Shown here: positions 19,343 to 33,763 of the stretch, piece by piece
Numbering within the stretch: position 1 is the stretch's first letter
How the letters are laid out: the number at the start of each line of letters is the position of its first letter
Source: an uncultured Roseovarius sp.
GTDB lineage: Bacteria > Pseudomonadota > Alphaproteobacteria > Rhodobacterales > Rhodobacteraceae
DNA: 64,000 nt
Assembly: GCA_947499555.1 (NCBI GenBank)
Contig: CANMOU010000002.1
Coordinates: 817,001-881,000 of the forward strand
Direction of reading: 5' to 3'
Position numbers and translations under genes: made by a program
The notes under the pieces: generated by a model
Told to the model about the DNA's origin: nothing
Database searches by the model: none
Seen by the model: the letters and a program-made list of their open reading frames with translations, nothing else

Positions 19343-20479
19343 GTGAACGGGTTGCGCGTTCTTGCGGGCGCTTCGGTTCTTGCGGCTGTGCTTGGGTCGG
19401 TGCATGCGTTTTCTGTCTTCATAGCACCGCTGGAGGCGTTGTTTTCCGTCTCACGCGGCCAGGTCAGCCTGACCTATTCCGGCGCGTTGATATGTTTGAC
19501 GCTCATAGTGCTTTTGGGTCATCGGATTTATCCCATGTTCTCCGCGCCGGTGCTTTGTCTTGCCACAGTAGGTCTTGGTGCGGCTGGGGCGCTGACTGCG
19601 TCGCTTTCGGGATCGATGATCGGTGTCTGGATCGGGTACAGTTTGCTTTTCGGGTTGGCAAACGGGCTTGGCTACGGGTTTGGCCTGCAGATCGCGGCCC
19701 AGGCGAATGCCGGGCGCGAAGGTCTGGCGATGGGCTGTGTGACTGCCGCCTATGCGCTGGGGGCGGTTCTTGCGCCGCTGCTGTTTGCGCAGGCCTTGGC
19801 CCATGGCGGATTTTCCTACGCGATGACCGGATTGGCGGTCGTACTTTTGGGCGCGGGGGCTTGTGCGGCCTTATTGATGCAGCGCGTGCGGTATCGGGCC
19901 GACCCCGCGCCAAGCGATGCCCGACCGGTGACAGAGGTCCGACGAATGTGGCTGGGCTATTTCGGTGGTGTTATGGCGGGTCTTATGGTGATCGGTCATG
20001 CCGCCGCGATTGCGCGTGTTCTGCAGCCCGAACAAGCCCTGTGGATTGCGCCCGCACTGGTTGCCGCCTGCAATCTGCTTGGAAGCCTGATCGCAGGGCG
20101 CGCGGTCGATACGCTTCGGGCAAAATGGGTCCTGCCAGGTCTGTCTGCTATCACCTGTCTTGGACTGTTGATCCTGGTTCTGCTCGAGGCGGCGGGGATG
20201 CTTCTGGCCTTGGCAATGATTGGCTTTGCCTATGGCGGAACCATTGCCGCCTGGCCACCGGTTATCGCGAAGAGGGTTGGGATGGCGCGAAGTGCGATGG
20301 TGTACGGGCAGGTTTTCACCGCTTGGGGTGTTGCCGGTCTGGCCGGACCCTGGCTTGCCGGGGCGCTCTTTGACGGCACAGGGACATACGGCATGTCGTT
20401 GCTGATTGCCGCCGGGTTTGGCGCGGTCGCGACGGCGCTCAGCTGGCGGCTGTTCTCGGCCACGGCCCAGACGCCTTGA
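19343..20479 (+). CDS. Major facilitator superfamily transporter
   Basis: A polytopic inner-membrane protein of about 378 residues with 11-12 hydrophobic helices, glycine- and alanine-rich. The signature loop is RIYPMF after helix 2, and GYGFGLQIAAQANAGREGLAMG is reminiscent of the oxalate/formate-antiporter-like MFS branch. The reading frame is open from GTG 19235, but the first 32 codons are unlike an MFS N-terminus. GTG 19343 has GAGG 11 bases ahead; GTG 19331 is also possible. The substrate cannot be named. The 3' end overlaps the convergent deacetylase gene by 41 bases. Confidence 0.8.
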   Translation: MNGLRVLAGASVLAAVLGSVHAFSVFIAPLEALFSVSRGQVSLTYSGALICLTLIVLLGHRIYPMFSAPVLCLATVGLGAAGALTASLSGSMIGVWIGYSLLFGLANGLGYGFGLQIAAQANAGREGLAMGCVTAAYALGAVLAPLLFAQALAHGGFSYAMTGLAVVLLGAGACAALLMQRVRYRADPAPSDARPVTEVRRMWLGYFGGVMAGLMVIGHAAAIARVLQPEQALWIAPALVAACNLLGSLIAGRAVDTLRAKWVLPGLSAITCLGLLILVLLEAAGMLLALAMIGFAYGGTIAAWPPVIAKRVGMARSAMVYGQVFTAWGVAGLAGPWLAGALFDGTGTYGMSLLIAAGFGAVATALSWRLFSATAQTP

Positions 20480-21152
20480 GAGGGGCCAATGTAATATCGC
20501 GGTCACGTGCAGCGCTCAGCAGCCGACCAAGTTGTTTTTGCGTGCTGTAAAACCCGGGGCCGGCTTTCTTTGGTCGGATATCGTGGCCGACAAAGACAGC
20601 CTTACCGCCGGTTTCGGCGATCAGGTCCAGAAGCCGAACTTGATGGGCCCATCCGGGGAAAGCTTTATGCTGTGCGTCTGCGAAGCCGAGATTTGCAAAA
20701 CACTTGTCTTTGGGTTGCGCCACGTAGATGCGCTTGCCGGGATTGAGCGGATCGACGCTTCGGGGGCCATCGGTTCGGATGACGTCAAAGCGGTTTGCGA
20801 GGGCCTTTCGGGTTTCGGTTGTCGAGCCATGGAAGGGGCAGGCGAAGCTGCGGGCGGGTAAGCCCAGATTGCGGTGTTCTGCGATACCCTCATCGATCTC
20901 GTGCCGCAGCCAGTGATCCAGACCGTGACGTTGCAGATAAGCGCCAAGGCGCGGGTGCGTTCTGGTGTGAAAGCCGATCTCGTGGCCATCATCCTGCAGT
21001 TGGTGCAGACCATGGATTTGCGATTTGGTTGCCTCGTGCAGGTGGCTTACGCAGAACGTTACCTTTGCGTCATGCATCTGGAAAACCGGCCGCGCGGCGC
21101 ACCAGTTGTCGACAAAGAGATCATCGAAGGTCAGACAAAGAGTTCCCGGCAT
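20439..21152 (-). CDS. Polysaccharide deacetylase family protein (NodB-like)
   Basis: A 237-residue predicted carbohydrate esterase of the CE4 family, which removes N- or O-acetyl groups from sugars using a divalent metal. TFDD at residues 8-11 gives the catalytic base and metal-binding aspartates, and HTRTHP (around 61-66) gives the metal-binding histidines. No signal peptide, so it acts in the cytoplasm or its substrate is lipid-linked. It lies directly downstream of the tyrosine autokinase gene (32-base gap), which suggests it edits a precursor of the polysaccharide made by this locus. The N-terminal start is at the first strand of the fold, as expected. Confidence 0.85.
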   Translation of the reverse strand: MPGTLCLTFDDLFVDNWCAARPVFQMHDAKVTFCVSHLHEATKSQIHGLHQLQDDGHEIGFHTRTHPRLGAYLQRHGLDHWLRHEIDEGIAEHRNLGLPARSFACPFHGSTTETRKALANRFDVIRTDGPRSVDPLNPGKRIYVAQPKDKCFANLGFADAQHKAFPGWAHQVRLLDLIAETGGKAVFVGHDIRPKKAGPGFYSTQKQLGRLLSAARDRDITLAPLKASGPWPRTAAS

Positions 21153-21184: not shown

Positions 21185-23203
21185 CTATTGGGTTGAGGGA
21201 ACGGCCGCACTTGGTTGGTAGGTACCATAGCCATAGGGGCGCAGGGCGCTGGGCGAAACCTTTGAAAAGACGAAACCTGCGATTGGTTGGCCGGCATTGT
21301 GCAAAAGACGAAGTGCCTCGCGCACCTGGGCCTTGCCGGTCTTGCCCCAGAGCACCGAAAACAGAATCGCATCAACCGAGTCTGCCAAAAGGCGCGCATC
21401 GGGCACGGCCAGCAGCGGGGGCGAGTCTATGACGATGTAGTCGTAATTTTCACGCAAAGTCGCAATCAGCGCAGCGAAGGTTTTGGACGCGAAAAGATCT
21501 GCGGCATTCTGATGTGTGGACGTGCCAGACAGGACGTCAAAACCGAAAGGTGCGGGGCGATAAATGGCATCCTGCAGGTTCGTTTCGCTGAGCAGGACAA
21601 GCTCCAGATTGCCTCTTGGCAAACCCGGCAGGTACTCGGCCAACGTGTTGGCGCGGATGTCAGCCCCCAAGAGCAGGACACGACGTCCGACGCCGACAAG
21701 CGATTGTGCCAGGGCCAGCGCGTTGGTGGTTTTGCCGTCGCCGGGCATCGCCGAGGCCGATAGAACGACTTGAGGCGGATCATCGGCTTGGGACAGAAGA
21801 AGCGAGGTGCGCAGATTGCGCACAGCTTCGGCAGCAGCCGATGTTGGATTGTGCAGAAGCTCTGGCAAAAGTTCGCCGCGCGTCTTTTTCTGGAGGTTGG
21901 GGATTTGGCCGAGCACTGTGTAACCGGTTGCGGTTTCAATCTCGTCAACGGTATGGAAACTGTCGCGGAGACGTGCACGCAATAGGACCATCAGCACACC
22001 GATGACCAGACCAGAAACCGAGGCCAAGGCCAATATGCGGAACCTCTGCGGTTCTGACGGACGCACCGGTATGACCGCGCGGGACAGGATGCGGCTATCG
22101 GGTTGTTGGATACCGTCTTGTGCTGAGGTCTCGTTGAACCGGGTCAGGAAGTATTCATAGAGCACGCGCGTTGCCTCGGCCTCGCGTTCAAGCTGCTGCA
22201 GCGTGATCAGGTCCTTGTTTTGCAGATCGATCTGCCGCATTAACCCCTGTTCGGACGTTCGCAGCGAGGCGAGCTGGCTGTCGAGACGTGCGAGCTCTCT
22301 GTTCTTTTGTTCCTGCCCTTCCGTGGCCTTTTGTGCATGCTGATCTTTTTCGAGATCGGATATCAAAGATGCCTTTGCGTCCTTGGCGGCATACATGCGC
22401 TCTCGCAGGTCTTTGGCCTGCCGTTCCAGCAGGCGCAGGGCTTCGGTTGAGACCAGTTCGGTGTTGGCGTTGTAACGGGCGACCTTGCTTTCGGCGTTCT
22501 GCAATTTTGTTTCGAGGTCGTGCACTTGTGTTGCCAGCCAGCCAGTGGCCTGCGTCGTGGCATCGCGCTTCACCGCAACCTGGTCGGCAATGTATGCCTC
22601 GGCCACGGCATCGGCAATTTCGGCCGATTTGACGGGATCGGTGGAGGCGGCTGTGATGCGGAAAACAAGGCTGGAGCGGATGTTCGAGACCGAAACCTGA
22701 GACAGAAGAGCCGAGATGACACGGTCCTGGGTCTGTTGTGGGTCCGGGTTGGTAGGATTTGGCGCGTGGAAGGTGAAGATAGATCTGAGCCGTGTGGCAG
22801 CTGACAATGGTTTCAGTTCGGAGTTGAATTCAGGATCGTTTGCAAGATCGAGGGTCGCTGCGACCGTGCCCATAAGGCCGCGACTGCGGAGGACCTCCAA
22901 TTCAGAGTTAATCTCGGATGTGTCGCCCGAAAGACCGGCCGCCACGCTTTTCAGATCGACGATTTGCTCCTGATTGGGTTCGAGAATGACAACAGAGGTG
23001 GCACGGTAAACCGGCGTGGCGAGGATGCTCGCATAAACTCCGCCAAGGCATGCGGCGGCAAACAATGAGGCACCGACCAACACTTTGCCACGCCACAAAA
23101 TCGAGAGCGCTGCGCCGAAATCTATTTCTTCGCGAGCCGCCCAAGCCTCTGTCGTCTCGCGGTGCGCGAAGGCTCTGGTTTGTCGCGGGTCGGAGATGGT
23201 CAT
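21185..23203 (-). CDS. Polysaccharide copolymerase / tyrosine autokinase (Wzc/Etk/ExoP type)
   Basis: Inner-membrane protein of 672 residues controlling chain length and export of the exopolysaccharide. Order: a Wzz-like N-terminal domain with TM1 (about 38-58); a long periplasmic coiled coil (about 200-420); TM2 after the proline-rich VIPVRPSEPQ; and a cytoplasmic BY-kinase with Walker A MPGDGKTTNA (about 482-491), Walker A' VLLLGADIRAN and Walker B YIVIDSPPLL. The C-terminal tail has only a small tyrosine group (YGYGTY) rather than the long cluster of E. coli Wzc. It is divergent from the YjbE-like gene at 23310 across a 106-base AT-rich region that must hold both promoters. Confidence 0.93.
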   Translation of the reverse strand: MTISDPRQTRAFAHRETTEAWAAREEIDFGAALSILWRGKVLVGASLFAAACLGGVYASILATPVYRATSVVILEPNQEQIVDLKSVAAGLSGDTSEINSELEVLRSRGLMGTVAATLDLANDPEFNSELKPLSAATRLRSIFTFHAPNPTNPDPQQTQDRVISALLSQVSVSNIRSSLVFRITAASTDPVKSAEIADAVAEAYIADQVAVKRDATTQATGWLATQVHDLETKLQNAESKVARYNANTELVSTEALRLLERQAKDLRERMYAAKDAKASLISDLEKDQHAQKATEGQEQKNRELARLDSQLASLRTSEQGLMRQIDLQNKDLITLQQLEREAEATRVLYEYFLTRFNETSAQDGIQQPDSRILSRAVIPVRPSEPQRFRILALASVSGLVIGVLMVLLRARLRDSFHTVDEIETATGYTVLGQIPNLQKKTRGELLPELLHNPTSAAAEAVRNLRTSLLLSQADDPPQVVLSASAMPGDGKTTNALALAQSLVGVGRRVLLLGADIRANTLAEYLPGLPRGNLELVLLSETNLQDAIYRPAPFGFDVLSGTSTHQNAADLFASKTFAALIATLRENYDYIVIDSPPLLAVPDARLLADSVDAILFSVLWGKTGKAQVREALRLLHNAGQPIAGFVFSKVSPSALRPYGYGTYQPSAAVPSTQ

Positions 23204-23309: not shown

Positions 23310-23579
23310 GTGAAGAATGTCTTAATATGCGTCCTGATCCTCACAGGGTCTGCCTTGAAAGCAGAGACGGCCGAAGCTGAAAAAGAGCGTATTTGTTCAG
23401 ACGGCCGAAACGCGGCTTTGCCGGTCTGCCTGGGTCTGCCGGACGCCAGCGAGCCAATCACGAATTTTGCGCCAGTGGTCTCGCCAATCGGCGGATTGGC
23501 GGCGGCCTTGGGTGCTGTGCTTGGAGCAGGCGGTGCGAGCCCGTCGACAAGCTCGACCAGCACATCGGGGACGAAATGA
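23310..23579 (+). CDS. Small exported protein, YjbE/GfcA-like
   Basis: An 89-residue predicted secreted protein. It has a signal peptide (about 1-18, ending LKA), two cysteines (ICSDGR...LPVCLG), an Ala/Gly-rich hydrophobic stretch (GGLAAALGAVLGAGGA) and a Ser/Thr-rich tail ending STSSTSTSGTK. This architecture recalls the small YjbE/GfcA proteins of E. coli group 4 capsule operons. YjbF-, YjbH-, Wza- and Wzc-type genes in the same locus support the idea. It starts with GTG and has no good Shine-Dalgarno sequence, so expression level and exact start are uncertain. The similarity is by architecture, not a search. Confidence 0.55.
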   Translation: MKNVLICVLILTGSALKAETAEAEKERICSDGRNAALPVCLGLPDASEPITNFAPVVSPIGGLAAALGAVLGAGGASPSTSSTSTSGTK

Positions 23580-23696: not shown

Positions 23697-24200
23697 GTGG
23701 GCTTGGGAACCAATATGTTGGACATGCGAAGCCAGTTCGTGCGCCTTATCGGCGGTGCCGTTTTCTTTCTATGCTTTGTGCTGGGTCTTCCGGGGTCGGA
23801 AGGCGCGATGGCGCGGGCGGAAACGATGGCTGCCGCCCCGCTGGTTGTTCGGAACGATCGCGGTGGGGACCTGCGAGAGCGTCTGGATCAGCTGCACCAA
23901 CTGCGTCAGAGTGGCAGGCCCGTGGAGATCAGAGGCCGGGTTTGCTTTTCGACCTGCACGCTGTTTATCGGGCTGCCGCAAACCTGTATTTCACCGCGAA
24001 CCACCTTTGGGTTTCACGGGCCGAGTTCATTTGGCCGCCCGCTTTCGCCGGAGGTGTTTGAGCGCGCTTCAGGCGTGATTGCGGATCATTATCCCGGCAA
24101 ACTTCGGCGCTGGTATCTTGAGACGGGCCGTTACCGGATCCGCACGCTCTATCGCATACCCGGGAGTCGGTTGGTCGAAATGGGTGTGCGGGCGTGCTGA
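23697..24200 (+). CDS. Hypothetical periplasmic protein (COG3904-like)
   Basis: A 167-residue protein with a signal peptide (hydrophobic core about residues 17-34), then a small domain containing VEIRGRVCFSTCTLFIG, a second cysteine-containing turn and FGFHGPSSFG. The combination of a strand, SxCT-type turn and FHG segment resembles the predicted periplasmic proteins of COG3904, which are distant relatives of the ClpP/crotonase fold; no catalytic triad can be asserted. GTG 23697 follows GGGGTGAG; ATG 23715 is an alternative. Located within the polysaccharide locus between the YjbE-like gene and the spike genes; role unknown. Confidence 0.6.
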   Translation: MGLGTNMLDMRSQFVRLIGGAVFFLCFVLGLPGSEGAMARAETMAAAPLVVRNDRGGDLRERLDQLHQLRQSGRPVEIRGRVCFSTCTLFIGLPQTCISPRTTFGFHGPSSFGRPLSPEVFERASGVIADHYPGKLRRWYLETGRYRIRTLYRIPGSRLVEMGVRAC

Positions 24201-24279
24201 GGCGTGAGCGTACGGCACGTTAATCAAACGGCAACCCTGTGCAAAGAGGTTTCGCGGCACGCTCAACATGGAGTTCGCG

Positions 24280-24549
24280 ATGCCTATTACTGACAGTTTT
24301 TCCAGTTTTGATACCGGCCTGACAGGGCCAATCTGTGGTGGGTTCGATATCACCCCCGATGATGCAAATGACCTGTCTTCAATGACGCGGGCGCTGATGG
24401 TGACCGGGTCTGGCGATCTTGGCGTTGTTCTCAAAGATGGCGATACGCTCGTTCTGCCCGGTTTGACACCAGGCGTAATTTACCCTTTGCGAATTGTGCG
24501 TGTTTTGGCGACCGGCACAACGGCGACCGGGATCAAGGGGCTCGTTTGA
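24280..24549 (+). CDS. Head-spike base protein, Rcc01079 (GhsA) family
   Basis: An 89-residue protein matching the spike-base family known from the Rhodobacter capsulatus gene transfer agent (Rcc01079/GhsA) and from many roseophages. Recognised segments are DSFSSFDTGLTGP, DITPDDANDL, TRALMVTGSGDLGV and the C-terminal RIVRVLATGTTATGIKGL. In the GTA, this protein anchors fibres to the capsid head and contributes to binding the host capsule. ATG 24280 has GGAG at 6-base spacing; ATG 24268 has none. The next gene starts on the last base of its stop codon. There are no capsid, portal or terminase genes here, so it is an isolated spike module inside a polysaccharide locus. Confidence 0.85.
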   Translation: MPITDSFSSFDTGLTGPICGGFDITPDDANDLSSMTRALMVTGSGDLGVVLKDGDTLVLPGLTPGVIYPLRIVRVLATGTTATGIKGLV

Positions 24550-25892
24550 TGATCGGCCTTTCCACCGGATTGCAGCCGCAATTCAACGCGCGCCAGACCG
24601 TCGATCTGCCCGTGGGGTTCGACTGGGATCAGGGGCGGTTTGACATTTCCATCACAAAATCCGGCAAGACCTACTCAAGCTCTTTTCAGCCACGCGATCT
24701 TGTTGACCAAGCCATCTGGACCGGCGCTGCAATTCACGTCGATAGCGCCGCGGGCGATGATGCCAATTCAGGTCTGGGTTCCGTGGATGGAGATTTTTCG
24801 TCCGCGAAAAGGACGATCCATGCGGCCTTTGTTGCGGGCAACGCAACAGGTGCGCCTTACCGTGTGCTCGTGACGCCTGGCACCTACGAGGAAAGCGCCT
24901 TTACCCGCAACGGCAATGATGAACCAGACCAGGCAGTGGCCGTGATTGGATGGCAAGGTGCGGTCCGGTATCGGACAGGTCCGTTCCTGCCCAATTGGAC
25001 GGATGCGGCCGGTACATATTCATCCTCTGTCAGTTCTGTGCGTCGCGCCTTTCGCACGGACGTGTTGACGGATAAGGGGCATTATACCGAGCTTTCAAAC
25101 GTTGCGGATGTGGCCACTTGTGCGGCGACACCCGACAGCTGGACGCAGGATGGTGGAACAATCCATGTCAATATCGGAAGTGCGCCGGGCGCGGGCGACA
25201 TCGCATTGATGCGGTCGTTTCACGGCGCACGATTCCTGAGCCATGACAGGGATTTCTATCTCGAAAACATCCACACCGAAGGGGGGATCACCGGCGCCCT
25301 GCATTTTGATGCCGTGGCAACGCGAAACATCGTCGGGGTGAATTGTTCCTTCCGCTATTCAGCGCCATCAAATCCGTCTTCGCCACTGGATGCCGTAAGG
25401 GTTCGGCGGACAAATGGTCTGGTTGCGTTTTTCGGCTGTGATGCGAGCCACGGTGCGAAAGACGGCTGGTCCTTTCATGAAGACGGAACAGTGGGGATGC
25501 ATGTGCTCTTGCAAGACTGCACCGGCTGGCGAAACGGGATTGATGGCGCCACATCCTGCAACGCGTTTACGACGCATGATGCTGTGCGTGCGATTGTGCT
25601 TAACGGCTCATTCGGTTTGTCGCGAAATGGCACCGAGGTTCATTGTATCCAGACAACCGAAACCTGGGTGGCCGGTGCGCGGGCGGTGGCACGAGATATT
25701 GATGGATCCTCTGTTGCCTTCAAATGTTCCAATCCGTCCTACATGTGGTTGCAAGACTGTGTCGCAGACGCGGATGGCGCGACCGATAACTATGCGGTTG
25801 AGGCCAATGCGGGAACGGTCTTTACACGAGATGTCGGCATCGTGGCTGGATCGGTCGAAACCTCGCTGGGCGGATCGGTTACGCCGTTCTGA
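24549..25892 (+). CDS. Right-handed beta-helix protein, probable head-spike fibre (Rcc01080/GhsB-like)
   Basis: A 447-residue protein coupled to the spike-base gene by a TGATG overlap. An N-terminal head domain (about 1-60) precedes IHVDSAAGDDANSGL and PYRVLVTPGTYEE, typical starts of phage tailspike beta-helices. Repeated coils follow, with stacked hydrophobic and aromatic positions (FYLENIHTEG, NIVGVNCSF, LVAFFGCDASHG, VLLQDCTGW, MWLQDCVADADG). No signal peptide. By position and fold it is the partner GhsB/Rcc01080 that binds polysaccharide; a lyase or hydrolase activity cannot be excluded. ATG 24549 is chosen over TTG 24546. The 3' end overlaps the convergent GumK-like gene by 103 bases. 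Confidence 0.75.
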   Translation: MIGLSTGLQPQFNARQTVDLPVGFDWDQGRFDISITKSGKTYSSSFQPRDLVDQAIWTGAAIHVDSAAGDDANSGLGSVDGDFSSAKRTIHAAFVAGNATGAPYRVLVTPGTYEESAFTRNGNDEPDQAVAVIGWQGAVRYRTGPFLPNWTDAAGTYSSSVSSVRRAFRTDVLTDKGHYTELSNVADVATCAATPDSWTQDGGTIHVNIGSAPGAGDIALMRSFHGARFLSHDRDFYLENIHTEGGITGALHFDAVATRNIVGVNCSFRYSAPSNPSSPLDAVRVRRTNGLVAFFGCDASHGAKDGWSFHEDGTVGMHVLLQDCTGWRNGIDGATSCNAFTTHDAVRAIVLNGSFGLSRNGTEVHCIQTTETWVAGARAVARDIDGSSVAFKCSNPSYMWLQDCVADADGATDNYAVEANAGTVFTRDVGIVAGSVETSLGGSVTPF

Positions 25893-26965
25893 GCAAGCTG
25901 GTGTGCAAGTTCCGACCAATCCGGGATCACTTCGGGTCTGTGCGGAAAATCTTCGCACAGACCCAGCGCGTTTGGCGCCCTGTAGCCGATGATCGAGGGG
26001 CATTCGGGAGTGCAAAGCCGATCTGGCCCGAGAATGGGCAGGCCGAAATGCCGGTAGAGCAGCATGCGATTGGAATTGGTGATCTGGTATTCCAGTCCGG
26101 GCGCGTCCCGATAAGGCGCAAGGCCAATATCGGCATGCGCGATATGGGCGAGCGTTCTTTCGAAATTCTGCTCGCCATGCCATGTCACGTTTTGTTGCTG
26201 CGGCGGTGTTGCCCTTAGCCGGCCAAGAATGTGGATATCCCAGTTTGGCCGCGCTTTTGCGAGATGCAGGATGGCAGCGTCGTCAAATTGGGTTGTACCT
26301 GCGCAAACGGCAATCTTTTGTCCGGCTCTGCGTTTGTAAGGGTCGTGATGGGGCTGATCGACAAGATGCCGCGGGATGCCCATGGGATCGAGGGTTACGT
26401 TGGGATGTCCCACAAACCTTTTTGCAAGGACCGGGCTTGCCGTGCTGATACGCGTGAAACGGTGGAGCATTTCCTGTTCGGCATCGATCAAACCCTGCGG
26501 TGCGTTGAGAAGCCGAATGTCATCATTGACGCGATAAATGCGTTTAGCTTGTGATGCGTGCCGCGCGAGCAGTGGCGCCAGCAAGAGCGAAGGCCCGCTT
26601 TCACAGATCACAAGATCCGCTTCGCCGAGACGGTCGCGCAGCATCCTTTCCCAATACCGAAAGAAGAGTGGCCAGGCCTTTTGGCCGAGCCGGGACAGAG
26701 CGGGGTGGCGCAGATTGACCGGGTGGACCGGGGCAAATTCAAATAGCGCGCTTAAAGTGGGGCCATGATGGACCAGACCTGTCTTCGGCCTATGTTCCAG
26801 CGCGCGAAGCCGGGCATCGCCCAATACCCGCGAGAGCCAGGAGTATCCGACCGTGACATGGGTCACGTGCCAACCGGATTGCTGAAGGTGATACGAAACC
26901 CAATGCAGGCTTGCACGCCTTTTTTGCTGCGCAAAGTGACCTGTCAAAAGGAACGCGCGCTTCAT
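25790..26965 (-). CDS. GumK-like glycosyltransferase (GT70 type)
   Basis: A 391-residue cytosolic or membrane-associated glycosyltransferase. The N-terminus FLLTGHFAQQKRRASLHW followed by HVTVGYSWLSRV fits the GumK family, which transfers glucuronic acid to a lipid-linked oligosaccharide in xanthan synthesis. The C-terminal half has the nucleotide-sugar domain (VCAGTTQFDD, PNWDIHILG, ADIGLAPYRDAPGLEYQ). An acidic sugar in the polymer is therefore likely. The frame is open far upstream, but ATG 26965 overlaps the stop of the flippase gene (ATGA) and begins exactly at the conserved strand. Last of five coupled genes. Its last 34 codons are antisense to the beta-helix gene. Confidence 0.85.
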   Translation of the reverse strand: MKRAFLLTGHFAQQKRRASLHWVSYHLQQSGWHVTHVTVGYSWLSRVLGDARLRALEHRPKTGLVHHGPTLSALFEFAPVHPVNLRHPALSRLGQKAWPLFFRYWERMLRDRLGEADLVICESGPSLLLAPLLARHASQAKRIYRVNDDIRLLNAPQGLIDAEQEMLHRFTRISTASPVLAKRFVGHPNVTLDPMGIPRHLVDQPHHDPYKRRAGQKIAVCAGTTQFDDAAILHLAKARPNWDIHILGRLRATPPQQQNVTWHGEQNFERTLAHIAHADIGLAPYRDAPGLEYQITNSNRMLLYRHFGLPILGPDRLCTPECPSIIGYRAPNALGLCEDFPHRPEVIPDWSELAHQLAQNGVTDPPSEVSTDPATMPTSRVKTVPALASTA

Positions 26966-28293
26966 GCCGGTCTCATCTGAGGATCGCGCAACAGCGTGGC
27001 GATGCCGAAGTAAAGAAATGTCCCGCAGATCATCTGTGCGAGCAAGGGCAGGGTCGGTGTCAGCAAGACAGTGAGCACGACGATGACAGCCGCGATCAGC
27101 GGCGGTGCGGCGGCTGAAAGATGTGACGTGGTAAGGCCGAGGCGGGGCAAGGCCCGGTTGATGTACCAGGTGTTTACAAGAAGTGCTGCGCAGGACAGCG
27201 CCAGAGCGCAGGCGATTGGCGTGTAAAGAAGTGCGGGAAGAAGCAGCGCGGTACCGATGCACAGCATGGCAACAGCGCGGTGCAGGACAAGGTCGGTGTG
27301 TGAACGTGCGGTGAGCGCCTGGTTGATTGGCATGATGAGCGCGCTGCTGAGGCCCAGTCCCGCGAAAGCACGAAGGATCGGGGCGGCGGCCTTGGTGTAC
27401 TCGGCGGACAGCATCAGGTGCATCAGGTCCGGCGCAAAGAGGAGCACGCCAGCCCAGATCCAGGCCGAGAGCCATGCAACGCGTGACAAGTGCATGGAGA
27501 TATCAAGATGTTTTTGGGAAGTCTTCCGTGCCAGTTGTGGCAGAGCGATAAACCGAAGCGGAGAGACGGCAAGCGCATCAATGAGCGTGTAGATGCGCGT
27601 GGCAATCTGAAAGGCGCCCGCTGCAGAAAGACCTAGGGTCAGGCCGATGGCCAGTTGCGCGAGGGGAAACTGGGCCGCCCCGGCGAGGTCGCGGCCGGAA
27701 ATCTGTGCGACTTTGGGCAAGAGCTGCACGGCGTGGCGCGCTGATGGGAGTTTGGATGGACACCATCGGGCCAACCAGATTGTCAGAAGGCACGTGCCGA
27801 TGGCATTGGCCAGCGCGAAGGCCACCAATGCCCAGACACCTGCACCGTCTATCAAAAGTGTCAGCGCCAGCACGGCGGCGGAAATCTGAACCGCGCCGGT
27901 TCTCAGAGCAAGGGCCTTTAGGCGCAGGGACTTGCGCAGAAGCCCGTCGGGGACAGCCGCCAATCCGTTGAGCAAGGGAATGATCGCAAGCGTGCACATC
28001 GCCGGTTGTGCGGTGAGGATGCCGACACTTGCAAAGATGACGGACAGACAGAGACCCGATGCGACCGACAAAAAGAAGAGGCCATCAAGGCGCCGGGGGC
28101 TTTTGCCAAGAATGATGACACATTCCGCGATCCCGGCCCGGTGCAGGCCCTGGCTTAGGCGTATCGGCGCGAAAAGGGTTGCGAAAAGCCCGATCTCGGA
28201 CAGTGTCAGAAAATGAGTGGCAATGAGAAAAAGCGCTGCGTTGATGCCGACGCGGGACCATTGAAGCAAGAAGGACCAGACCTGTGTGCTCAT
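26962..28293 (-). CDS. Polysaccharide flippase, Wzx-like
   Basis: A 443-residue polytopic membrane protein with about 12-14 hydrophobic helices of the oligosaccharide flippase type, expected to move lipid-linked repeat units across the inner membrane. Fits include LSEIGLFATLFAPIRLSQGL, RDLAGAAQFPLAQLAIGL and the even spacing of helices. The frame extends 83 codons upstream, but that part is low-complexity antisense-like sequence. ATG 28293 overlaps the acyltransferase stop (ATGA), so this start is used. Fourth gene of the coupled operon. Family assigned from topology and context. Confidence 0.85.
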   Translation of the reverse strand: MSTQVWSFLLQWSRVGINAALFLIATHFLTLSEIGLFATLFAPIRLSQGLHRAGIAECVIILGKSPRRLDGLFFLSVASGLCLSVIFASVGILTAQPAMCTLAIIPLLNGLAAVPDGLLRKSLRLKALALRTGAVQISAAVLALTLLIDGAGVWALVAFALANAIGTCLLTIWLARWCPSKLPSARHAVQLLPKVAQISGRDLAGAAQFPLAQLAIGLTLGLSAAGAFQIATRIYTLIDALAVSPLRFIALPQLARKTSQKHLDISMHLSRVAWLSAWIWAGVLLFAPDLMHLMLSAEYTKAAAPILRAFAGLGLSSALIMPINQALTARSHTDLVLHRAVAMLCIGTALLLPALLYTPIACALALSCAALLVNTWYINRALPRLGLTTSHLSAAAPPLIAAVIVVLTVLLTPTLPLLAQMICGTFLYFGIATLLRDPQMRPA

Positions 28294-29315
28294 GCCGCCA
28301 CGGCCTTTCCAGGGGCATTGAGCCACTGCATCATTGGCCGCTCCAGCAGGAGATGTGTCAGACCCCCGACCATCAGGGCCAATACGATGACGCCACCAAC
28401 ATAGATCCATGCGCCCGTCGCGCTTTGTGGCATGAGTGGCAGCAAGAGCAGGGTCGCCGCGCGCAGGGTGAAGCGGTGTGAAAGGTAAACTGCGTAGGAG
28501 GCATCGCCCAAGAGCTGGCCTGGAGTCCTGACATTGGGACAAAGCAGAGTTGCGCTTGCAATGACGATGGTGGAAGGAACGCCTGCAGCGATGACCCGTG
28601 GCAGATCGAGCGTGCCGAGCAAGATCAGAAGGCCCAATCCCACGATCAGACCAATGATTGCCAGAAGAGCACTTGGATAGACCAAACCCAATTGATAGAG
28701 GCGCGCCAAGCCTATGCCAAACAGGAATTCAAGGATCAGCGGGTTGGTCCAGAAAGAGATCGCTGTCGTGGAGTACGGGATTGCCAGGCCGACGAGGACA
28801 AGCAAGATCAACAAGCCTGCAACGGTCGCAAGTGCGTTCCTCATGCAAAGAGAAATCGCAAAAAGGGCGTAAAAGAAAATTTCGTAATTCAGCGTCCAGC
28901 CGAGCGACAGGACCGGTGCGATCCGCCCATCTGAGCGGGCATAGGGCAGGAACCCATAGGAGGACAGGATTTGTCCCAAATCCAGATTTGTGTCCTTTGC
29001 GGCCCCGGGCAAGAGCAGAAGAACAGCGACCATGAGAGTGGTGAACAGGTAGTAAAGTGGTACGACCCGCACCAGTCGTCTTTTGAAGAAGGTAAGCGGC
29101 TGCGCGTGGAACCGGCTTGCCGAGAGCGTGACGACAAAGCCGGAAATGACAAAGAAGAGGTCCACGCCCCGTGTCCATGGGATCGCATCGCCTGCAAGGG
29201 GCACGCCGAAATAATGCTCGGCTTCGGCAATGGTATGGCCAATCAAGGCCATGATTGCGGCCAAGGCGCGCATCGATTGCAGACCCGCAAGTTTGGTGGA
29301 AGGCGTGCCGGTCAT
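28290..29315 (-). CDS. Acyltransferase 3 family membrane protein
   Basis: A 341-residue membrane O-acyltransferase with about 10 helices. The first helix carries SMRALAAIMALIGH (catalytic-type His of the family), followed by GVDLFFVISGF and RLVRVVPLYYL, all typical of acyltransferase-3 proteins that acetylate or succinylate surface sugars. It probably decorates the polymer of this locus. ATG 29315 overlaps the stop of the polymerase gene (ATGA); the longer frame is not used. Third gene of the coupled operon. Confidence 0.93.
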   Translation of the reverse strand: MTGTPSTKLAGLQSMRALAAIMALIGHTIAEAEHYFGVPLAGDAIPWTRGVDLFFVISGFVVTLSASRFHAQPLTFFKRRLVRVVPLYYLFTTLMVAVLLLLPGAAKDTNLDLGQILSSYGFLPYARSDGRIAPVLSLGWTLNYEIFFYALFAISLCMRNALATVAGLLILLVLVGLAIPYSTTAISFWTNPLILEFLFGIGLARLYQLGLVYPSALLAIIGLIVGLGLLILLGTLDLPRVIAAGVPSTIVIASATLLCPNVRTPGQLLGDASYAVYLSHRFTLRAATLLLLPLMPQSATGAWIYVGGVIVLALMVGGLTHLLLERPMMQWLNAPGKAVAA

Positions 29316-30586
29316 GATGCCATTTCGACCGATCCGATATCGCGGCATCCAGACGTATCACGGGAAATGGGTTTCCTGCCGACGCGGCGTGCGGTTCTGC
29401 AAATCAGCGCAATGACGGCAATGGAGACCAGAAAGTTCTGATGCGTGACATAGACGGCGTGGCTTGAAAACAGCAGAGCCGCTCCGATCTGAGCATAAAT
29501 CGCCGTCCAGCCGAGCGATTGGCAGGCACTGTGAAAGACCAGGCGAAAGAGCACGGCAAAACCAGCGATGACACCTATGCCAAGAACCGGACCAAAATCC
29601 ACATAGGCGGATGTGAAGAACGGAAATTCACCGCCGCCCAAAACGACGTTTAACTCTGGAATCCTGCTTGGGTTCGCGCCTGCAGCAAGCCCATCGGTGA
29701 AGGTCAGGAAACTCAGGCCTTCGAAAGTGAGGGCACCATATGTGTGAGGAATGGGACGGCTGAGCGGCGCGAGGCTGTTCCACATGTCATTTGCAATGTA
29801 GAAGGCTAGCTTCTGGCCTGCGATCATCGTGACAGCACTGTCCATGTTGGGATTTGTGATTGCCTCGCGCGCAATCCACAGGCCCAGGAACAGGCAGACG
29901 CCAAGGATGAGCCAGCGCAGGGCATACATCTGCCCCTTCACCATGCAGGTGGCGATGTAGCTGGACAAAAGAAACTGTAGCAGCAAGAGCCGCTGGCTCA
30001 TGACGATCGGCAGAAGAAACAGCAGGATCGCATTGAGGAGCAATGTCGCCTGACAAAGCCGCCGTGATCGGGCCGTCAGACCGCCATTGGCAAGCAATGC
30101 CGCGGCCATTGCACCGGTGGCCGGAAGTGCCGCGTAAAAAATGCGCATGCCAGTGAAGAGTTTATTCTCCAGCAACATGTCGCGGGTTCCGAGACTGTCG
30201 AGATAAACCGCGGCGGTCAGTGCCGAGATGCCACCGATTTTATGCGCTGTCGCGGCAATCCAAAGAAGGGTGACGCAGGCAAATACAAGGTTGACCGTGG
30301 TGTTGAGACCTGCGGCCTTGTTCACGTCAAGCCGCGCTTCGAAAGGGTGCAGAGGCGGAAGAGAAAGCCGTGCGATCCAATCAGCAAGCGTGTAGACCGT
30401 CAGGCCAAGGATAATCCAGATGATGCCCGCCAAAGTAATGGCCGAAAGATCAAGCTGTTCGCGGGCCATGAAGGTTTGGACAAGGACCATTTGGTCAAGA
30501 GACAGAAAGGTCCAAGTCGCAAAAACCGCGGTCATGACCCAGCAAAAAAGCATGAGGCTTGGCGGAGAGAGAGCCTGTCGCTTCAT
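29312..30586 (-). CDS. O-antigen/exopolysaccharide polymerase, Wzy-like
   Basis: A 424-residue protein with about 11-12 hydrophobic helices and a large extracytoplasmic loop (about residues 255-330, with GALTFEGLSFLTF and PELNVVLGGGEFPFFTSAYVD), the layout of Wzy/oligosaccharide repeat-unit polymerases. These have little sequence conservation, so the call rests on topology, on the FFTSAYVDFGPVLG segment common near the end of this family and on its position between a sulfotransferase and a flippase. ATG 30586 overlaps the sulfotransferase stop (ATGA). Second gene of the operon. Confidence 0.8.
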   Translation of the reverse strand: MKRQALSPPSLMLFCWVMTAVFATWTFLSLDQMVLVQTFMAREQLDLSAITLAGIIWIILGLTVYTLADWIARLSLPPLHPFEARLDVNKAAGLNTTVNLVFACVTLLWIAATAHKIGGISALTAAVYLDSLGTRDMLLENKLFTGMRIFYAALPATGAMAAALLANGGLTARSRRLCQATLLLNAILLFLLPIVMSQRLLLLQFLLSSYIATCMVKGQMYALRWLILGVCLFLGLWIAREAITNPNMDSAVTMIAGQKLAFYIANDMWNSLAPLSRPIPHTYGALTFEGLSFLTFTDGLAAGANPSRIPELNVVLGGGEFPFFTSAYVDFGPVLGIGVIAGFAVLFRLVFHSACQSLGWTAIYAQIGAALLFSSHAVYVTHQNFLVSIAVIALICRTARRVGRKPISRDTSGCRDIGSVEMAS

Positions 30587-31281
30587 GCAGCCGGCCGTAG
30601 GGTTCTGCAGCTCTCATAGAGCTCTATATCGGGCGCGCAGATTTGTTCCAGACGATGACGCAGTGCTGACGACACGGTGGGTTTGCCCGGGGCACGGTTG
30701 CGATGCCAGAATGGCAAAGGTCCTCCGGTCAGTGCGCGCAGGTCTGCATAACAGGCCCGCGCGTCGCTCAAGTCTCCGACCAGATCGAACCGGGAGAGCG
30801 CGCGCACGGCGCGGCTGATCAAAGGGGTGCAATCATGGGTCTCAACCTGGCTTTGACCTGCGAAATAGAACAGGTACTGCGTCGCCAGACGGCGGGCGTC
30901 TCTGGTCTCAAGGAAAGCGTCGAGTGTGGCGGGCCGGTTCTGATCGGGGTGCTTGCGTTGCAGGTAGTGGTAATGGGAGACCAATCGCGCAACCGGATCC
31001 CGCAAGAGCGTGACAAAGCCGTAGTCACGCGCCTTACCAAGATGCAATTCGGGGTCATATTGAACATGGCCTGCAATAAGGCGCGTGCCCTTCTCGACAT
31101 GCGTTCGAATCTCGGCACGCCGTGCGGCGTAGTCGCTTAGAATGCGTGCCTCACCTGTCAGAGAGCGATCTCCCTGATTGAGCCTGATCGTGGCTTGCGA
31201 GGTCAGGAACCTAAGACGCAATGCAGCACCGAAAGAAAACCCGCCGCATTTTGGCACGTGGATGTAGATGAGCCCAGTCAT
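30583..31281 (-). CDS. Sulfotransferase family 2 domain protein
   Basis: A predicted PAPS-dependent carbohydrate sulfotransferase of 232 residues. The N-terminal IYIHVPKCGGFSFG is the 5'-phosphosulfate-binding loop and LLRDPVARLVSHYHY is the 3'-phosphate-binding motif; both are intact. As first gene of an operon encoding polymerase, acyltransferase, flippase and GumK-like transferase, it probably sulfates the exopolysaccharide or a lipid-linked precursor. ATG 31281 starts directly at the first strand but has only a distant GGGAG; ATG 31317 is an alternative that would add 12 residues. Divergent from the GT4 gene at 31410 over a 128-base promoter region. Confidence 0.88.
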   Translation of the reverse strand: MTGLIYIHVPKCGGFSFGAALRLRFLTSQATIRLNQGDRSLTGEARILSDYAARRAEIRTHVEKGTRLIAGHVQYDPELHLGKARDYGFVTLLRDPVARLVSHYHYLQRKHPDQNRPATLDAFLETRDARRLATQYLFYFAGQSQVETHDCTPLISRAVRALSRFDLVGDLSDARACYADLRALTGGPLPFWHRNRAPGKPTVSSALRHRLEQICAPDIELYESCRTLRPAA

Positions 31282-31409
31282 GACGTGTCGTGTGCGCTCC
31301 CGTGGCCGGATCGCCATGGCGGGTCCCGGTCTGTCGTTTGTTAGCAATTTGGTAAGATTCGCACGGCAGGGTTAACGGGTGCTTAACGTCCGAGTGAAGG
31401 AGCGCCCGT

Positions 31410-32582
31410 ATGCATATCGTGCATCTGATCACCCGCCTGTTGCGGGCGGGATCAGAAGAAAATACTTTAGAAACAATACGCTGGCAGATCAGCGCTGGTC
31501 ACCAAGTCACGCTGATCCACGGCTCGGACCCAGATCCCTATTGGAATGAACATCTGCCTCATGGGCTTCATCGGATCATATTGCCGGAATTGGTTCACCC
31601 CGTTGATGGTTATCGCGATCTGCGCGCGATTACATGGTTGCGCGAGATCTACCAAACGCTGATGCCGGATGTGATTCATACACATCAAAGCAAAGCTGGT
31701 CTTGTTGGTCGGCTGGCGGCAGATGTCGTGCCTGAGGCGCTTGTTGTGCATGGGATCCACATTTTGCCGTTTGAAGGCGTGAACCCTGTCAGGCGTGCGA
31801 TTTACCTTGCCGCCGAGCGGCTTGCGGCGCAACGAACCGATGCGTTCATCTCTGTCTCACAGGCGGTATCGAAAACATATCTCGAGGCGGGGCTGGCGCG
31901 TCCCGGCCAAATGTTCTGCGTCAGGTCCGGAATGGATCTTGATCGCTTCCGTCATGCGCAGCCGCCGGTGGATTGGCGGGACCTCTCTGGCGCGAAAGCA
32001 TCTGGTGAAAAACCACTGCTCGTTCTGATGATGGCCGCCTTCGAGAAGCGTAAACGGCACGTCGCCTTTCTTCGGGCCTTTGCGGATGTGGCCGCGCGTT
32101 TACCTGCCACGCGGATCTTGCTGGCAGGGCAGGGACCGGAGGAGGCACGGGTCAGGGCCGAGGTGGTGCGGCTTGGTCTGCAGGAACACGTTGTGTTCTG
32201 CGGCCACCGCCCCGATGCCGAGGCGCTGTTTGCGCTGGCGGATGTCTCGGTTCTGACGTCCGCGCGCGAAGGGCTGCCAAGAGTTGTGGTGCAGTCCATT
32301 GCTGCGGGATGTCCGGTCTTGGCTCAGGACATTCCAGGGCTTGATGAGATCATCGTGAATGAGCGCAATGGCCTTATCTTGCCAGCGGATGATCAACGTG
32401 CCGTGGCTATGCGTCTGGCGAATGTTCTCAATGATGCCTCTCTACGCACCAGCCTTGCGTCTGGCGCGCGAGAGACAGACGTGTCGGCCTGGGAGCTGTC
32501 TCGTCTGGGGGCCGGGATCGAACGGTGTTATCGCGCGGCTCTTGGACGGCAGGCATCGGTCCTGCAGGCCGAGGTCGCATGA
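31410..32582 (+). CDS. Glycosyltransferase family 4 protein
   Basis: A 390-residue GT-B glycosyltransferase. The N-terminal Rossmann half begins HIVHLITRLLRAGSEEN and includes PDVIHTHQSKAGLVGRLAA. The C-terminal donor domain has LVLMMAAFEKRKRH, LLAGQGPEEARV and the E-x7-E region SAREGLPRVVVQSIAAGCPV. It adds one sugar to the repeat unit; donor and acceptor unknown. The start has AAGGAGCG at 7-base spacing. Its stop overlaps the next glycosyltransferase start (ATGA), so the two are made together. Confidence 0.93.
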   Translation: MHIVHLITRLLRAGSEENTLETIRWQISAGHQVTLIHGSDPDPYWNEHLPHGLHRIILPELVHPVDGYRDLRAITWLREIYQTLMPDVIHTHQSKAGLVGRLAADVVPEALVVHGIHILPFEGVNPVRRAIYLAAERLAAQRTDAFISVSQAVSKTYLEAGLARPGQMFCVRSGMDLDRFRHAQPPVDWRDLSGAKASGEKPLLVLMMAAFEKRKRHVAFLRAFADVAARLPATRILLAGQGPEEARVRAEVVRLGLQEHVVFCGHRPDAEALFALADVSVLTSAREGLPRVVVQSIAAGCPVLAQDIPGLDEIIVNERNGLILPADDQRAVAMRLANVLNDASLRTSLASGARETDVSAWELSRLGAGIERCYRAALGRQASVLQAEVA

Positions 32583-33763
32583 CGCTTTACATCAACGGCC
32601 GGTTTCTGACCCAGCCTCTGTCCGGTGTACAGCGCTTTGCGCATGAGATTGTCAAAGCGCTCGACGGGCTTCTGGCGGATGACGGATCGCTCAGGAAGCA
32701 CTTTGGCCGCGTTGTGGTCGTGACGCCCTTTTTGTCGGAGGCAGAGCGCGCGCAATACCCCCGCTACCGAGTGATAGAGATCCATCCAACCGGCGCGTCG
32801 CGTGGTCATGTGTGGGAGCAGTCAAGACTTTACCAGGTCAGCAAAACCGGCATCCTGCTTAGCCTGTGCAACAGCGGGCCGCTGGCGCATGACCGTCATG
32901 TAGTGGCGTTTCACGATGCGCATGTTTTTGAGATGCCCGAGGCGTTTTCCACTCGATACCAGAGATGGCATCGCTTCCTAAGACCGAGACTGGCGCGTCG
33001 GGCGCGGCAGCTCATCACCGTGAGCCACTATTCCGCGCAGAGTTTGGGGGGGTGGCTTGATATCGATCAGGCAGCTTTTTCTATCGTCCCTAATGCGGCT
33101 GAGCACATCTTGTCAGTTGAAGCAAACCCAAGCGCAGCACAGGCGCACGGGCTTACGCCTGGAGGCTACTTTCTAACCGTCGGCAACCAAAGCCCGAACA
33201 AGAACCTATCCTGGCTGGTTGATGCCCATCGAAGTGCCGGACCCGGTTTGCTGAAGCTTGTTGTCGTTGGAGATGCGCCGCCGGCACTTGGTCAGGCATC
33301 CCTGCAGGAGAGCGACACTGTGCGCATCCTTGGCCGTGTTACAGATGGTGATTTATGCGGTCTTCTTCTTGGATCCGCCGGATTTGTTTTCCCGTCGCTC
33401 AATGAAGGTTTTGGCATCCCACCCTTGGAGGCCATGCAATTGGGTGTTCCTGTTCTGAGTTCGAACACCACCGCGATGCCAGAAGTTCTTGGCGATGCGC
33501 CAATGTGGTTTGACCCAAGCGACAGTCTTGGAATGACCCTCGCGCTGAAGCGCTTTGCCGCGATGTCAAGCGACGAGCGGGCACGTCGCATTGCCAAAGG
33601 CCAGGCGCGCGCGGCGCAGTACTCATGGCAGGCCAGTGCCGAAGCTCTGATTTCAGCACTGGATCCGCTCTTCGGCAGCGCGCCGCGGTCGCGGTCCGGC
33701 CTGTCGGACCCAAAGAGACTTTCACCGTCCAGTCGGACGAAAGATAACAGCGCTTGTGCGTAG
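32579..33763 (+). CDS. Glycosyltransferase family 4 protein (mannosyltransferase-like)
   Basis: A 394-residue GT-B enzyme. It starts LYINGRFLTQPLSGVQRFA, a pattern common in WbpY/mannosyltransferase-type GT4 proteins. Donor-domain motifs are YFLTVGNQSPNKN, VRILGRVTDGDL and FPSLNEGFGIPPLEAMQLG (the E-x7-E motif). The ORF is open from 32525, but ATG 32579 overlaps the upstream stop (ATGA) and starts at the conserved strand. Its last 42 bases overlap the convergent sugar-transferase gene. Sugar specificity is inferred weakly. Confidence 0.92.
   Translation: MTLYINGRFLTQPLSGVQRFAHEIVKALDGLLADDGSLRKHFGRVVVVTPFLSEAERAQYPRYRVIEIHPTGASRGHVWEQSRLYQVSKTGILLSLCNSGPLAHDRHVVAFHDAHVFEMPEAFSTRYQRWHRFLRPRLARRARQLITVSHYSAQSLGGWLDIDQAAFSIVPNAAEHILSVEANPSAAQAHGLTPGGYFLTVGNQSPNKNLSWLVDAHRSAGPGLLKLVVVGDAPPALGQASLQESDTVRILGRVTDGDLCGLLLGSAGFVFPSLNEGFGIPPLEAMQLGVPVLSSNTTAMPEVLGDAPMWFDPSDSLGMTLALKRFAAMSSDERARRIAKGQARAAQYSWQASAEALISALDPLFGSAPRSRSGLSDPKRLSPSSRTKDNSACA

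Follow-up and report, generated by a model that had tools for sequence, protein, structure and literature searches.

A spike base and fibre pair among polysaccharide genes

The window, a 64,000-nt stretch of the genome of an uncultured Roseovarius sp., carries on its forward strand a spike base ORF (24280–24549, 89 aa) and a head-spike fibre ORF (24549–25892, 447 aa) whose ATG overlaps the base stop codon by one base. A preliminary description of this DNA had placed the 89-residue product in the Rcc01079 (GhsA) family, and profile searches bore this out. The base matched NF048002 (‘spike base protein, RCAP_Rcc01079 family’) over its full length (positions 1–85 of 85) with an E-value of 4e-29 and 100.7 bits against a curated cut-off of 28, as well as PHROG 12296 (tail fibre; E 3e-23) and the head spike base Rcc01079 in the PDB (6tb9; E 1.5e-10 in a sequence search). 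A base profile reached Rcc01079 in the PDB with an E-value of 9e-32, its seven rows including a piece of Rcc01079 itself. The lack of similarity to the Rcc01079/Rcc01080 families, named beforehand as an argument against the proposal, was thus not what we found, the similarity of the base being clear. The Rcc01079 base is described as a jellyroll fold that forms a pentamer, with its N-terminus on two capsid subunits (PMC7296036). At E ≤ 1, the copy at 24280–24549 was the only spike base gene in the host genome.

The 447-residue product had been proposed to occupy the GhsB position, and it does: it lies directly downstream of the base and begins with a GTA-type docking peptide, MIGLSTGLQ (hydrophobic/glycine, residues 2–10), less regular than IALGLGLGL. 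Such a docking ‘star peptide’ has been described for the GTA head-spike fibre (PMC7296036), and 43 of 74 fibres, compared with 12 of 440 control ORFs, have the pattern G[LIVF][GSTA] within residues 1–10. The fibre matched PHROG 16653 (‘hydrolase’, E 1.4e-32), PHROG 32409 (‘tail fiber’, E 3e-18) and 34 phage records by tblastn at E ≤ 0.01. Neither a Pfam search nor PDB searches with the fibre sequence and then with a 23-row fibre profile gave a match at E ≤ 1. A Klebsiella phage tail protein that aligns with the fibre, tried as a bridge to its putative beta-helix fold, proved uninformative because its PDB matches (E ≤ 0.01) were confined to its N-terminal 29 residues, outside the region shared with the fibre; no Pfam domains were found in it or in a Pseudoalteromonas phage relative of the fibre. 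Judged by eye, both base and fibre lack a signal peptide. The base–fibre pair is confirmed as real.

Polysaccharide genes flank the pair on both sides, as had been described, with GumK-like, Wzx-like, Wzy-like, GT4 and Wzc-type genes among them. Upstream lie, on the reverse strand, a polysaccharide deacetylase-like protein (20439–21152; PF01522, E 3e-11) and a Wzc-type tyrosine autokinase (21185–23203; Wzz, GNVR and AAA_31 domains), followed on the forward strand by a small 89-aa ORF (23310–23579), weakly conserved in three congeners, and a hypothetical protein of 167 aa just 5′ of the base (23697–24200), conserved in the three congeners examined. Downstream, the reverse strand encodes a GumK-like glucuronosyltransferase (25790–26980; PF22059, E 4e-46), a Wzx-like flippase (26962–28542; PF13440, E 4e-18), an acyltransferase 3 (28290–29348; PF01757), a Wzy-like membrane protein (29312–30586) that has no Pfam match and whose homologue is annotated as a repeat-unit polymerase in Roseivivax, and a sulfotransferase-family protein (30583–31347; PF03567, E 2.5e-5). 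Two family 4 glycosyltransferases on the forward strand (31410–32582, PF00534, E 7e-32; 32525–33763, PF13692, E 5.5e-19) precede an undecaprenyl-phosphate sugar transferase on the reverse strand (33722–34420; homologue of an annotated gene in Marinovum pMaD9) and a forward-strand YjbH-family protein (35355–37457; homologous to annotated genes). The fibre and the GumK-like gene are convergent and their 3′ ends overlap by 103 nt. Of 31 relatives tried, 28 yielded both genes, and 10 of these had exactly this overlap; the lengths in several others are unreliable because the alignments ran past a stop. Within 20 kb around the pair, 18 phage and 18 GTA structural and packaging seeds (integrases not among them) found no match, in agreement with the earlier statement that no phage structural genes surround it.

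Linkage to polysaccharide genes and relatives in phages

Across the Rhodobacteraceae, polysaccharide genes lay near 58 of 90 full-length spike-base loci compared with 1 of 26 controls (Fisher p 1e-8), in a sample in which kinship was handled only by taking nearly one genome per genus and with a search model of six EPS-linked sequences and one GTA sequence, which favours the linked kind. Among genome-collection loci with a window-type fibre, several of which repeat records already among the earlier loci, 25 of 25 had both the base and polysaccharide genes. These counts establish the genetic linkage of the spike to polysaccharide genes. The preliminary description had held that the pair turning up consistently at unrelated loci without a polysaccharide link would speak against its proposal; a portion of the family is of this kind, 27 of the 90 loci showing neither polysaccharide nor phage/GTA genes by seed search. 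A Pfam tally of these 27 unlinked loci, made without L180 and L181, drew 98 proteins from the other 25 and listed the best 25 of 58 and of 36 families; the ORFs were chosen by an automatic procedure that may pick up antisense frames.

Fibre type also tracked locus type. The 134 locus pairs with homologous fibres shared a mean of 1.01 neighbours, as opposed to 0.15 in 2567 others, a value reached in 0 of 2000 permutations, with the same handling of kinship. Co-variation of the pair with the gene set of its locus, raised earlier as a question, is therefore found across genera. The association extends to plasmids: copies in Sulfitobacter, Marinovum and Roseivivax adjoin repA-parAB, and other polysaccharide types stand beside spike bases in Rhodovulum and Jannaschia plasmids, with rfbACD adjoining the spike base in Rhodovulum pRGUI04. 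Plasmids with polysaccharide operons have been reported in the same family (2016 work cited in PMC13386836). All five plasmid records examined list their spike bases as hypothetical proteins.

The RcGTA head spike Rcc01079/Rcc01080 (GhsA/GhsB) is among the closest known counterparts. It shares with the window pair the base family, the two-gene order and a leucine/glycine-type docking peptide, both may by implication be under GTA-type regulation, and it adjoins the CPS genes rcc01081–01086, an adjacency already published for R. capsulatus (PMC10218006); our findings beyond this adjacency were not found in the literature searched. The systems differ in fibre length (447 aa versus 325 aa for Rcc01080, PMC7296036), the window fibre body giving no match among PDB sequences, and the window, unlike RcGTA, has a Wzx/Wzy-type locus with a GumK-like transferase in a GTA-less host. 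A second GTA-regulated, polysaccharide-directed spike, RcGTA TspA (rcc02623), is similar in these respects and differs in being a tail-associated trimer, whose gene is described as lying in a single conserved module of the genome, beside lysS and not in capsule loci (PMC13420450).

Phages carry related parts. The fibre body (residues 20–447 or 20–427) recurs at 57–60% identity in six viral contigs from IMG/VR (L238–L243). In L238, the only one on which Pfam was run, it stands behind the capsid-binding domain PF09956 (Phage_cement_2) in a gene between the portal and capsid genes, that is, as one protein with a different anchor encoded among phage head genes, whereas base and fibre are separate in the window. 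Spike-base relatives number 362 in viral contigs and occur in RcapNL, RcapMu and DSS3P8. All this would fit a module that decorates the capsids of phages residing in or entering the cell, or one that hampers phages sharing its fibre body. Such a role is nevertheless very unlikely in our estimation, given the 20 kb free of phage seed matches, a host genome with no capsid of the PF05065 family (the only capsid family searched) and a linkage that is with polysaccharide genes.

The GTA remnant of the host and the promoter motif

The preliminary description had offered the pair as the remote head-spike operon of the host's own GTA and had suggested looking for a main cluster elsewhere in the genome. 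What we found was a single terminase–megatron fusion ORF. No GTA capsid gene was detected in the host genome either with PF05065, which does recognise the capsid of a congener, or with the congener's capsid protein as query. The same kind of fusion remnant is present in eight congeners, its junction unchanged at 62–71% protein identity, which indicates that the GTA loss is old. The base family, the docking peptide, a gafA-like ORF beside lipA and a promoter motif resembling that of GTAs would all suit an active operon of this kind. Since the capsid gene was not found and the cluster is deleted, however, the pair cannot serve the host's own GTA as a functioning spike operon; the idea is refuted for this assembly, barring a second GTA in an unassembled gap (completeness 99.91%), and we regard it as improbable in the extreme. 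It may hold in congeners G422, G423 and G471, which have the same locus, because their GTA_TIM is full length; the G422 terminase looks split between two frames. More generally, spike bases occurred more often where GTA_TIM is full (127 of 326 genomes versus 11 of 68, p 2.5e-4). All 6 full loci of GTA-less genomes were EPS-linked compared with 52 of 84 others, a difference that was not significant (p 0.085) in a count that left out L096 (linked) and L110 (unlinked) as too short and did not cover G240 and two places in G244.

Gibbs sampling of 29 window-type upstream regions returned a conserved 30-nt promoter-like motif of 18.7 bits (9.2–9.6 in shuffled sequences). In the window, whose copy is one of the 29 training upstreams, the best score of 23.0 fell on 24206–24235 of the forward strand (GAGCGTACGGCACGTTAATCAAACGGCAAC), which stops 44 nt short of the base ATG; the next best was 11.4. 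The motif exceeded the 99% level of 1093 gene-upstream controls at 38 of 60 other EPS-linked spike bases, 16 of 40 unlinked ones and 2 of 7 in phage context. Upstream of GTA terminases, it exceeded the 99% level of 1040 control pieces in 10 of 27 cases and missed the cut in 17, including congener G278 (10.4 versus 11.5). The motif consensus ends in TTAAC, resembling a CtrA half-site, and the window copy ends in GCAAC; full CtrA sites (TTAA-N7-TTAA) were absent from 36 spike-base upstreams, and no sigma-70 promoter was found near the pair. The gafA-like ORF beside lipA was located via a phage relative and lipA synteny. Use of the DnaA-type HTH family as a route to gafA gave, besides dnaA, sub-threshold matches only. 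From the likeness of the motif and from published passages, we infer that the module may be under GafA/CtrA control.

Selection on the module and its possible roles

Fibre dN was among the lowest in the locus: conservation of the fibre roughly equals that of the best-conserved enzyme and exceeds that of the remaining ones. In this comparison dS is near saturation in most pairs, and we left out the GTx rows (the stretch ran beyond the gene; dN was 0.42 in the single long comparison, WIN-L204), all wzx rows (of 12 codons apiece, save for WIN-L203 with 526 codons and dN 0.37) and the short GT4b rows. Computed from pairwise dN, the own-branch dN of the fibre was 0.083 against a sister distance of 0.063. 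In relatives L038, L045, L203 and L237 the fibre reading frame is broken, in L045 and L203 alongside a full-length GTA_TIM and in L038 without one; the module is therefore dispensable.

As the particle appears to have been lost long ago in the host, the module would be either idle cargo of its locus or serve a purpose other than the host's own GTA. On the first alternative, it rides with a polysaccharide island acquired after GTA loss and is drifting. The age of the loss and the broken fibres agree with this, as does the fact that no spike base was seen in any of eight other congeners with the GTA remnant, which is expected if the island arrived later. On the other hand, neither reading frame is broken in the host, its promoter motif is likewise intact, and the own-branch ratio of the fibre (1.3) is not raised relative to Wzc (1.36), the Wzy-like protein (1.42) and GT4 (1.39). 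Drift as cargo is thus possible, if doubtful.

A domesticated, putative polymer processor is a different proposition, in which the fibre trims or binds the host polysaccharide, for instance at cell lysis, without a particle. The conservation of the fibre speaks for it, together with intact fibres in three genomes lacking a full GTA_TIM (G000, G139 and G141), the ‘hydrolase’ label of PHROG 16653 and the precedent of TspA, described as a detachable biofilm-degrading tailspike (PMC13420450). We nonetheless judge it unlikely: all 25 loci retain, beside the fibre, the base that is described in the literature as its anchor on the capsid, neither product has a recognisable signal peptide, no enzymatic residues were recognised, and the promoter motif is GTA-like and has no other good match in the window.

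Overall, the evidence favours, with a probability of about 0.7, a complete GTA-type capsid head-spike module that fits the polymer made next to it, is passed on together with that polymer and has here outlived the particle. By analogy with RcGTA, five base subunits would sit on a capsid vertex, where the N-terminal peptide of one fibre would plug in, and the fibre body would bind, and perhaps cut, the polymer made by the adjacent genes. The module would be switched on by GTA regulators (GafA with CtrA) and not with the polysaccharide genes. Lock (the polymer genes) and key (the spike) would be inherited as one block, on chromosomes and plasmids, so that a lineage gaining the polymer would also gain the matching spike and its particles would grip cells with the same coat. 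In the present host, which is without a GTA, this function cannot run with its own particle.

A broader and decidedly speculative reading, which we hold to be rather improbable, is that the GTA has been reduced to a working regulon without a particle, comprising an intact gafA-like activator, a polymer-tied spike driven by a GTA promoter and a terminase-ATPase/megatron fusion under purifying selection. On this view the spike would need no GTA capsid and would work on capsids of another kind or on the polymer directly. Polysaccharide loci at large would be islands of self-recognition (lock-and-key, ‘greenbeard’-like), each bringing its own particle key along as it moves between hosts.

In hosts that have no GTA yet retain pieces of its regulon, the action of those pieces can be tested in isolation, and the shared promoter motif allows the dispersed members of the GTA regulon to be traced by sequence. 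If polymer loci routinely carry a spike for their own product, the same DNA block would set both the coat of a cell and its GTA exchange partners, and a change of coat by plasmid transfer would shift the DNA-exchange group at once. How GTAs find kin, and why they persist, would then become testable by swapping a single locus.

The head-spike pair and its fibre bodies

The 89-residue product of the spike base gene (24280-24549, plus strand) matches the NCBI model 'spike base protein, RCAP_Rcc01079 family' at 100.7 bits (cut-off 28). It also matches the solved head-spike base of RcGTA, the gene transfer agent (GTA) of Rhodobacter capsulatus, with an E-value of 1.5e-10 in a sequence search and of 9e-32 with a profile built partly from a fragment of that protein. 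The 447-residue fibre gene (24549-25892, plus strand) follows directly, its ATG sharing one base with the stop of the base gene, and the pair is flanked on both sides by minus-strand polysaccharide genes. The membership in the Rcc01079 family and the placement among polysaccharide genes proposed in the preliminary description were thus confirmed. Directly 5′ of the base lies an uncharacterised 167-aa gene (23697-24200), which gave no significant Pfam or NCBIfam match and is retained in the three congeners examined (3/3).

According to PMC7296036, residues 2-10 of the RcGTA fibre (IALGLGLGL) form a five-point star in pockets of the five base subunits. The window fibre begins with MIGLSTGLQ, and the pattern G[LIVF][GSTA] occurred within residues 1-10 of 43 of the 74 plausible fibres encoded 3′ of spike bases (those with an M start and no fewer than 150 aa among the 91 next ORFs located at 117 loci) compared with 12 of 440 control ORFs. 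The fibre occupies the position of GhsB (Rcc01080), as had been suggested, in that it directly follows the base and starts with an RcGTA-like docking peptide. Behind this leader, the bodies fell into seven groups of at least two members plus many singletons, mutually dissimilar at the cut used, a pattern that exchangeable receptor-binding parts sharing one socket would be expected to give. In L175, L177, L075 and similar loci, a spike base inside a polysaccharide locus has no fibre directly downstream; in some of them, fibre-like genes lie several genes off, among glycosyltransferases.

Relatives of the window fibre belong to phage tail-fibre and 'hydrolase' families, and 34 phage records also match it at E ≤ 0.01. 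Searches of Pfam domains and of solved structures gave no match for the fibre, and its beta-helix fold is a guess. The fibre body (residues 20-447 or 20-427, 57-60% identity) also occurs in six viral contigs from IMG/VR (L238-L243), none of which has a spike-base match. In L238, the sole one run against Pfam, the body stands behind a PF09956 capsid-cement domain in a gene located between the portal and capsid genes; the L239 and L241 proteins begin like that of L238, as judged by eye. Because one body is found on two unrelated anchors, the capsid-cement domain and the GTA vertex base, we argue that it is a head-mounted part that would bind the coat.

Spike bases, polysaccharide loci and a shared upstream motif

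A seven-row spike-base profile matched 138 of 394 Rhodobacteraceae genomes, chosen at nearly one per genus, with at least about 149 places beyond the window's own among the matches listed. The surroundings of 111 loci, comprising the 40 top-ranked rows, alternate rows among the 109 that followed and a further 17 of these (about 37 listed places were left out), were searched with a set of 35 polysaccharide-gene seeds, of which seven came from the window. At least one seed was found in 64 of the 111 loci; among the 90 loci of at least 19 kb, 58 contained at least one, 35 at least two and 26 at least three, compared with one of 26 control stretches at set positions in 12 of the genomes (58/90 against 1/26, Fisher P = 1e-8). 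The linked share, 30/40 in the top-scoring set and 34/71 in the remainder, is probably an over-estimate, since the profile rows comprise six polysaccharide-linked sequences and one GTA sequence. Phage or GTA seeds lay near eight of the 111 loci (one also with polysaccharide seeds), and neither kind near 40. Pfam searches of 98 neighbours from 25 of the 27 full-length loci with neither kind returned assorted housekeeping families (top 25 families per run), with one each of glycosyltransferase, acyltransferase, sulfotransferase and phage lysozyme among those listed.

A scan of the genome collection located 25 loci carrying the window fibre at 59-83% identity, several being the same records as survey loci, in Sulfitobacter, Ruegeria, Marinovum, Palleronia, Tateyamaria, Tranquillimonas, Roseivivax and several MAGs. 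All 25 had a base match just 5′ and at least one polysaccharide seed close by (a single one in L229, L232 and L236). Of 85 genomes in Roseovarius, the genus of the host, 19 carry a spike base, which is of the window type in four. In plasmid copies from Sulfitobacter, Marinovum and Roseivivax, repA-parA-parB is followed by the pair and then by polysaccharide genes; the spike bases on plasmids of Rhodovulum and Jannaschia belong to polysaccharide loci of other kinds, accompanied by different fibre-like genes. The anticipated co-variation of fibre type with neighbouring genes was borne out over 74 loci: pairs of loci with homologous fibre bodies shared a mean of 1.01 neighbour genes compared with 0.15 in other pairs; sharing at this level between loci with homologous bodies was reached in none of 2000 label permutations, which ignore host kinship. 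The convergent 3′ ends of the fibre and GumK-like transferase genes overlap by exactly 103 nt (25790-25892), as they do in several genera (L002, L202, L204, L214-L218, L220, L233).

From 29 non-redundant upstream regions of window-type bases we built a 30-nt motif (about CAgCGtACGC..CGTTa......gTtAAC) containing 18.7 bits of information compared with 9.2-9.6 after shuffling; in 26 of these regions it precedes the ATG at a distance of 43-48 nt. The window site at 24206 scores 23.0, and the second-best window score is 11.4. Among spike bases outside the training set, 38 of 60 polysaccharide-linked ones, 16 of 40 unlinked ones, some of which lie on short contigs, and two of seven in a phage context scored above the 99% level set by 1093 control regions upstream of genes. 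The motif also exceeded the 99% control level 315-484 nt before 10 of 27 GTA large-terminase genes. This set, with some near-duplicates, consists of the congener G278, whose own score was below that level, and of the 26 viral-collection records (out of 80) that extend far enough upstream. PMC9638019 and PMC6363796 report that GTA promoters are a site of action of GafA, whose C-terminus is sigma-like, that CtrA and GafA trigger the head-spike genes, and that the head-spike promoter carries a CtrA half-site. We infer that the motif may be GafA-linked. The own genome retains a gafA-like ORF of 364 aa (C1:778674-779675) beside lipA (C1:778252), the published position of gafA, despite the loss of its GTA capsid cluster. 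The ORF is weakly related (E = 4e-5) to a roseophage RDJL Phi 1 protein encoded beside the phage ctrA, a query picked by position rather than annotation that matched 15 of 15 genomes tested; five other remnant-bearing congeners tested have similar ORFs.

GTA loss and constraint on the pair

The single Pfam GTA_TIM match of the own genome covers only positions 204-299 and sits in one ORF of about 843 aa (C1, L037:15115-17646), with a terminase N-domain at its start and the C-terminal half of the megatron at its end; aligned to an intact congener, it comprises terminase 8-184 and megatron 681-1343. A search for the PF05065 capsid family, which does recognise the GTA capsid of a congener, returned nothing in the own genome, nor did a search with that congener's capsid protein. 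The host is without a GTA, and the proposal that the pair is the remote head-spike operon of its GTA fails in this genome, where no capsid gene was found and a look for a main cluster elsewhere yielded the fusion remnant only.

In eight further congeners, the GTA_TIM match likewise begins only at about position 204, and the frame containing it is 840-893 aa long. The junction recurs in seven of these, whose remnants are 62-71% identical to the own copy, and in the eighth, L205, an 840-aa frame aligns across both halves, so that the in-frame fusion is common to nine species (L205-L212 in the congeners). The shared junction at this divergence argues that the deletion is old. With dN/dS of about 0.07-0.16 among the closest four remnants (L205, L206, L210, L212), the fusion looks like a domesticated protein. 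Weak GTA_TIM matches suggest a candidate fusion in up to 19 more genomes of other genera. In the congener G422, the GTA terminase N-terminus is divided over two frames (C1:1673644-1673987), and this GTA may be damaged.

Base and fibre are 81% identical to those of the congener L202; the GumK-like transferase (57%), Wzx (62%), Wzc (65%), Wzy-like protein (72%), GT4 (76%) and sugar transferase (83%, part present only) were also compared. Fibre dN was 0.12 to L202 and 0.11 to the congener L204, base dN 0.13 and 0.10, and that of the partial sugar transferase 0.12; values of 0.18-0.33 were obtained for the remaining genes of which most of the sequence could be compared, excluding GTx. The fibre's own-branch dN of 0.083 is 1.3 times the sister-sister distance, a ratio like those of Wzc (1.36), Wzy-like (1.42) and GT4 (1.39), and relaxed constraint is thus not evident on the lineage leading to the GTA-less host; ancestors that still had a GTA may account for part of that branch. 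Counting against constraint, the fibre frame is broken by a stop or frameshift in L038, L045, L203 and L237, relatives with and without full GTA_TIM.

A proposed GTA-type spike inherited with the coat locus

In R. capsulatus, capsule genes adjoin the head-spike genes and are co-regulated with them, according to PMC10218006, so that spike-capsule adjacency and co-regulation were already known there. The generality of the association, its plasmid carriage, the shared motif and spikes in GTA-less hosts appear to be new, no report of them having been found in the portions of the open-access literature searched.

Taken together, we propose that the module represents a head spike of the GTA type, inherited with the adjacent coat locus, to which its specificity would be matched. 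Relatives that possess a GTA plausibly use it to arm the particle; spike bases occur more often in genomes with full GTA_TIM (127/326 compared with 11/68, P = 2.5e-4, with 20 weak-match genomes scored by E-value as lacking full GTA_TIM and genomes not listed counted as having no match). In this host, the module would either have outlived the particle or have arrived after its loss.
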